Position numbers and translations under genes: made by a program
Part shown: positions 26,743 to 27,002 of the stretch, piece by piece
How positions within the stretch are numbered: the stretch's first letter is position 1
How the letters are laid out: every line of letters starts with the position of its first letter
Source: a virus
Direction: 5' to 3' (one strand)
DNA length: 64,000 bases
IMG/VR virus record: IMGVR_UViG_3300048996_000163
Span: 62,001-126,000 of that record
The notes under the pieces: model-generated
Told to the model about the DNA's origin: nothing
The model's database searches: none
Seen by the model: the letters and a program-made list of their open reading frames with translations, nothing else

Positions 26743-26991
26743 CGCACCGGGAGGAGCCTGCTTCAGTTGCGAGTGCCCGAGATCAAGGTCGGGAGCGGTA
26801 TGAGTGCCTTTGCTCTGCCATCTGAGCTACCGGCGTCGAAACGCCGAGCAGGAATTGAACCTGCGACCCAAGGATTAGAAGTAACCGCCACCTGCGCACC
26901 GGGCACCGCATCTGAAGTTGTAGGCCGCTCCCGAGATCAATGTGCCAGCGGTGTTTTTCGCAGAAGAAGTAACCGCTGGCGGCGCACCGGG
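26743..26991. repeat. Short direct repeats in the Y RNA locus
   Basis: AGAAGTAACCGC occurs at 26877 and 26965, and CGCACCGGG at 26743, 26895 and 26983. The 88-base offset between the two joint copies indicates a partial tandem duplication inside the locus. CCCGAGATCAA also occurs twice (26776, 26930). Confidence 0.8.
26776..26938 (-). ncRNA. yrlA: YrlA-type Y RNA with permuted tRNA-like module
   Basis: On the minus strand, 50 bases before the rsr start. An outer stem GGGAGCGG (26925-26932) / CCGCTCCC (26791-26798) and a second stem ATG(c)GGTGCC / GGCACTCAT enclose a tRNA mimic in permuted order: T-arm GCAGG-TTCAATT-CCTGC, an acceptor-like stem CGGCGT-TTCG-ACGCCG, then the D-arm GCTC-AGATGGCA-GAGC. 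The 3' strand CTTGATCTCGGG resembles the 3' strand of Ro-binding helices (CUUGACU in vertebrate Y RNAs). YrlA RNAs bind Rsr and mimic tRNA. Exact ends are unknown. Confidence 0.8.
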
Positions 26992-27002
26992 AGATGCTCG
27001 GG
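26930..27002 (-). ncRNA. Upstream Ro-binding-like hairpin (5' extension or second Y RNA)
   Basis: CCCGAG-c-ATC at 26993-27002 pairs with GATCTCGGG (26930-26938), giving a nine-bp helix with one bulged C, the hallmark of Ro-binding helices. Inside is a perfect 9-bp stem GCCAGCGGT/ACCGCTGGC (26972-26980, 26944-26952). The same 5' strand could instead pair with the second CTCGGG copy at 26776-26781, enclosing the whole tRNA-like module. So this is either the true 5' end of a long Y RNA or a separate small one. Confidence 0.6.

Follow-up and report, generated by a model that had tools for sequence, protein, structure and literature searches.

A Strand That Occurs Twice Upstream of rsr

How many RNAs are encoded just upstream of a viral gene for a Ro60/TROVE protein, and which strands close them? 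The window considered here is the whole stretch of 64,000 nucleotides that was analysed, part of a virus record of 132,717 bases (IMGVR_UViG_3300048996_000163) for which no near-identical phage records were found. The gene, rsr, lies on the minus strand (25143..26726, with its ATG at 26726) and encodes a protein of 527 aa that matches Pfam TROVE (E 1e-18), the RNA-binding protein family PHROG 850 (E 6.6e-50) and the solved TROVE protein 9l5y (E 2.4e-29). Its nearest relatives found in genomes come from Asanoa (two loci, 63-66% identity), which hints at a possible host among the Micromonosporaceae. Divergent helix-turn-helix genes, at 27066-27611 on the minus strand and 27708-27941 on the plus strand, adjoin the Y RNAs described below and resemble a repressor pair; the plus-strand gene matches HTH_31 (E 4.8e-9) and the helix-turn-helix match of the minus-strand gene is weak.

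Upstream of rsr, and on the same strand, the sequence GATCTCGGG occurs at 26938-26930 and again at 26784-26776. These are its only minus-strand copies in the window, and the plus strand holds one more, at 15030. The preliminary description of the locus had pointed to this repeated 3' strand, and the letters bear it out. It had also paired the near copy with CCCGAGCATC (27002-26993, minus strand), which is complementary to it with one bulged C, had likened the resulting nine-bp helix to the conserved Ro-binding helix, and had offered two explanations, namely a switch in which one 5' strand serves both copies, or two RNAs. The interval in question, 26930-27002, covers the first of the units described below (Y1) and its leader; it does not include the tRNA mimic or the far copy of GATCTCGGG, which lie at 26906-26773. 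The duplication is far above chance, with both copies lying within TTGATCTCGGG, a motif conserved across a family of Y RNA units, and we therefore take them for two copies of a single presumed protein-binding half-site. Judged by sequence comparison, they are the conserved 3' strands of two separate units, Y1 and Y2, in tandem upstream of rsr. Our main reading, to which we give a probability of about 0.88, is that of a phage transcript upstream of rsr with two tandem and presumably Rsr-binding Y RNAs, each with its own closing stem and the second of the YrlA type.

Two Units and the Register of Their Closing Stems

The window was compared with a set of rsr (Ro60/TROVE) loci, 56 viral and 80 actinobacterial, most of which have such units just upstream of rsr, and the linkage between unit and gene is retained in viral and bacterial relatives alike. 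Two units stand in the window, and rsr follows them directly on the same strand, the adjacency expected of a bacterial Y RNA; the Ro/Y RNA context suggested earlier was thus well chosen. A unit of this family begins with a variable stem strand, continues with GUGCG, usually GGUUACUUC or a similar sequence, and a variable part, and ends with UUGAUCU and the complementary stem strand. Besides the cores, UACUUC is near-invariant in the unpaired part and common to tRNA-less and YrlA-type units (alignment of 26983-26993 and 26934-26940 with homologues).

Family comparison delimits both units, which like all their parts lie on the minus strand. Y1 (26928..26993) is a 66-nt Y RNA unit that has no tRNA module. 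Its closing stem, conserved and covarying, pairs CUCCCG (26993-26988) with CGGGAG (26933-26928), its cores are GUGCG at 26987-26983 and UUGAUCU at 26940-26934, and an inner hairpin, GCCAGCGGU/ACCGCUGGC, lies within the same limits. A linker (26907..26927) leads to Y2, the YrlA-type unit (26773..26906), in which GUGCCCG (26906-26900) pairs with CGGGCAC (26779-26773) in a stem conserved across the family, with the cores GUGCG at 26899-26895 and UUGAUCU at 26786-26780.

How firmly is this register set? In an unbiased test, units were found by their core motifs alone with the stem ignored, which gave 96 viral and 104 bacterial units (200 together). At least 6 contiguous bp lie directly outside the cores in 82% of the viral and 84% of the bacterial units, compared with 0-1% in registers slid by 1-3 and with 11% (viral) or 22% (bacterial) when the 3' strands are shuffled among units. 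An alignment of tRNA-less units (42 rows) has 94.7% of its cells paired. Double-sided changes affect 57 cells, compared with 9.9 in shuffles, and covariation scores 0.436, versus 0.115 when shuffled and at most 0.123 in slid versions. Only rows whose closing stem had 5 bp or more were admitted, so that the covariation test taken alone is circular for the closing helix and the core-located test is the unbiased one. The closing stem is therefore CUCCCG/CGGGAG in Y1 and GUGCCCG/CGGGCAC in Y2; the RNA ends form a conserved lower stem, as in bacterial Y RNAs and YrlA. It is the option of two RNAs, each with its own 5' strand and covarying stem, that has held.

Strands of different units can pair over at least 6 bp in 8.6% of cases within viral loci versus 12.6% between them, and in 12.5% versus 26.3% for bacterial loci, figures suggestive of closing stems that are distinct within one locus. 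Arrays of five to eight Y units precede rsr in five of the loci, the largest having eight, and their closing stems are mostly different from one another.

The Leader and the Bulged-C Helix

What, then, is the nine-bp helix with its bulged C? It can be drawn, and its 3' strand is the correct one, but its 5' strand, CCCGAGCATC in the leader (26993..27002, minus strand), comes from the bases that directly precede the correct one. The conserved strand CUCCCG lies immediately inside it, with C26993 as the sole shared base, and the far copy of GATCTCGGG has a partner of its own in GUGCCCG. Among 87 first units, the 9-bp helix is present in the window alone. Pairing with GATCTCGGG that is as good or better arises in 1.1% of shuffles of the window's 18-nt leader and in 1.7% of random 18-mers from the window, and about one case per 87 first units is therefore expected; the level of this helix is reached by 2 of 121 viral units versus 1.4% of shuffled leaders. 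The CCCGAG-c-ATC helix was accordingly rejected as a conserved element, being confined to the window among the first units and at chance level. As a Ro-binding helix it is also off register, and as far as the sequences can tell it is a coincidence of the leader.

A -10-like box, TAGCGT (27005..27010, minus strand), precedes the closing strand of Y1 by 11 nt. TANNNT at exactly this distance is found in 11 of the 87 first units, the highest peak, and in the window, as in many other loci, the box is followed by a GCAC/GCAT box. Scans for sigma-70 consensus promoters and for terminators gave no matches. With the usual -10 spacing and the shared GCAC/GCAT box, the transcript is predicted to start at G26997 or alternatively at A26998 (minus strand), and CCCGA or CCCG would therefore be removed from the RNA. 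The preliminary description had named transcript ends lacking the 5' CCCGAG as what would speak against its helix; the predicted start excludes most of that strand.

The tRNA Mimic, the Flanking Helix and the rsr Leader Hairpin

Y2 contains the permuted tRNA mimic (26808..26872, minus strand), in which T-arm, closed acceptor hairpin and D-arm follow one another in an order that is the same in homologues. Compared with Rfam YrlA (RF02553) it scores 36.8 bits (E 1.5e-6) and does not reach the gathering score of 69, which is a library cut-off and not a biological feature; an Rfam search at the gathering score gave no match. The alignment spans model positions 23-85 of 114, that is, the tRNA-like module only, and at sub-gathering level the YrlA model also matches in 7 of 14 control genomes. 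An ordinary tRNA gene was considered and rejected, ARAGORN finding none. The mimic reported earlier is thus present in Y2, in the permuted form and with a partial, sub-threshold match to the model.

A further helix extends around Y2. Its 5' strand, CUUCAG-a-UGCG, is supplied by the linker and its 3' strand, CGCA-a-CUGAAG, lies at 26761..26771 (minus strand). Across the last units of the loci, flanks pair with their cognate partners at -12.9 kcal/mol versus -6.8 kcal/mol with non-cognate ones (p 2e-4), the effect in the reversed control being smaller (1.1 kcal/mol). This extended helix is perhaps a processing stem. Before the rsr start there follows a hairpin, GGCUCCUCCCGGUGCGGAAGGGGCC (26734..26758, minus strand), with the likely ribosome-binding sequence and then UUUU. 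A strong hairpin holding such a sequence stands a few bases 5' of the rsr start in many loci, and in seven of them a hairpin was seen within the last 48 nt before the gene. The hairpin may terminate the Y RNA transcript, block translation, or do both. A third copy of CCCGGTGCG, the Y-unit 5' core, is found at 26743-26756 (minus strand), in the loop and arm of this hairpin, and one other locus has a copy in the same situation.

Alternative Pairings and the Origin of Y1

Could the duplicated strand act as a switch? According to the preliminary description, CCCGAGCATC would alternate between the near and the far copy of GATCTCGGG and form either a small hairpin or a structure enclosing the tRNA mimic. 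With the leader included, naked Y1 alone does prefer the near-copy pairing (mean P 0.75), and an RNA that ends at 26772 prefers the far one (P 0.82). Both pairings, however, drop to P of at most 0.06 once the flanks of Y2 are included (3' end at 26760 or beyond), the 5' strand is conserved nowhere else among the 87 first units, the far copy owns a covarying partner, and the predicted start deletes most of the 5' strand; from that start, Y1 alone closes with P 0.98 in naked-RNA folding. An alternative-pairing switch should have both pairings conserved and their energies balanced, a combination that was not found, and with its 5' strand mostly upstream of the predicted start we regard the near/far switch as scarcely credible. 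We think hardly better of the view that Y1 is a decaying and functionless duplicate of Y2 from which the tRNA module has been lost. The two share a 27-nt 5' repeat at 85%, and Y1 is devoid of tRNA arms, but units without the tRNA module recur as a class of narrow size range, 48 of 56 falling within 65-79 nt, their stems covary, and 39 of 87 loci contain both kinds of unit.

In a switch of another sort, the 3' strand of Y1, CGGGAGCGGCCU, would leave that unit for a long helix with the 5' arm of the hairpin that holds the rsr ribosome-binding site and so free the site, with Rsr-bound Y1 favouring the closed state as a feedback. In the window the two states differ little in energy (P 0.32 and 0.60), and for nucleotides 7-14 past the Y1 core the native leader is a better pairing partner than other leaders (p 2e-4, compared with p 0.2 for the reversed control). 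The closing 6 nt of Y1, on the other hand, have no cognate preference (p 0.11-0.20), and the pairing may simply belong to the outer end of the helix that flanks Y2. Across 37 loci, the state with separate domains is favoured more by natural than by shuffled leaders (mean 3.2 versus 0.8 kcal/mol, p 7e-4), and a tuned switch between Y1 and the rsr hairpin is therefore unsupported; we consider it unlikely. A wider scheme would extend it to tandem Y RNA arrays with mutually distinct closing stems at actinophage and actinobacterial rsr loci. The stem of the penultimate unit would there compete with the hairpin in which the rsr ribosome-binding site is hidden, and Rsr production would be set by Rsr occupancy of the Y RNAs. 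This too seems improbable to us, and two tandem Y RNAs with separate closing stems remain the preferred reading.

A Proposed Role for the Two Y RNAs

In the likeliest role, drawn by analogy, Y1 and Y2 would be two Rsr-binding RNAs of which Y2 has an effector domain. The stem that lies directly outside the 5' GUGCG and the 3' UUGAUCU would form, together with these cores, the presumed Rsr-binding site. Y1 would start nearly at the promoter and be a short Y RNA devoid of an effector module, while the stem of Y2 would bear the permuted tRNA-like domain, with the extended flanking helix wrapped around the unit. Both are expected to bind the phage Rsr, as their counterparts in Deinococcus and Salmonella suggest, and Y2 may be expected to use its distal tRNA-like domain for tethering or gating enzymes that handle RNA. 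For actinobacterial and actinophage Y RNAs, the comparison settles in which register the presumed Rsr-binding stem pairs, tells tRNA-less units apart from those of YrlA type and yields a predicted 5' end; footprinting and mutants can target the closing-stem bases instead of CCCGAG.

Comparison With Known Y RNAs

Y RNAs have been reported from diverse bacteria and from mycobacteriophages (Chen et al. 2014, as cited in PMC12282133), and the tandem phage Y RNAs belong to a kind of RNA already known, of which they are a well-preserved case. Like YrlA (RF02553), Y2 adjoins rsr, has a stem formed from the RNA ends and carries the permuted order of T-arm, closed acceptor hairpin and D-arm; unlike the family model, it falls below the gathering cut-off, aligns with part of the model positions only, and stands in tandem with a tRNA-less unit. 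The Salmonella rsr-yrlBA locus has two Y RNAs beside rsr, of which YrlA has a tRNA-like domain (PMC7790460), and the phage arrangement resembles it in having two Y RNAs per rsr locus, one with such a domain. There, however, rsr precedes the Y RNAs, rtcBA follows and control is by RtcR (PMC7790460), whereas in the phage the Y RNAs precede rsr. In Deinococcus radiodurans, the Y RNA tethers Rsr to PNPase in the RYPER complex and gates its substrates (PMC4726728), and an Rsr-bound lower stem like the one found there is what we propose for the phage units. The vertebrate Ro60-binding site is likewise a lower stem in which the RNA ends pair and which includes a conserved irregular region (PMC4726728). 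It differs in that its 7-bp helix has a single bulged C facing a 3-nt bulge (PMC4726728), an arrangement that was not found here, the bulged-C helix being unconserved; the units described here have instead a 6-8 bp stem that abuts an internal loop of GUGCG and UUGAUCU.
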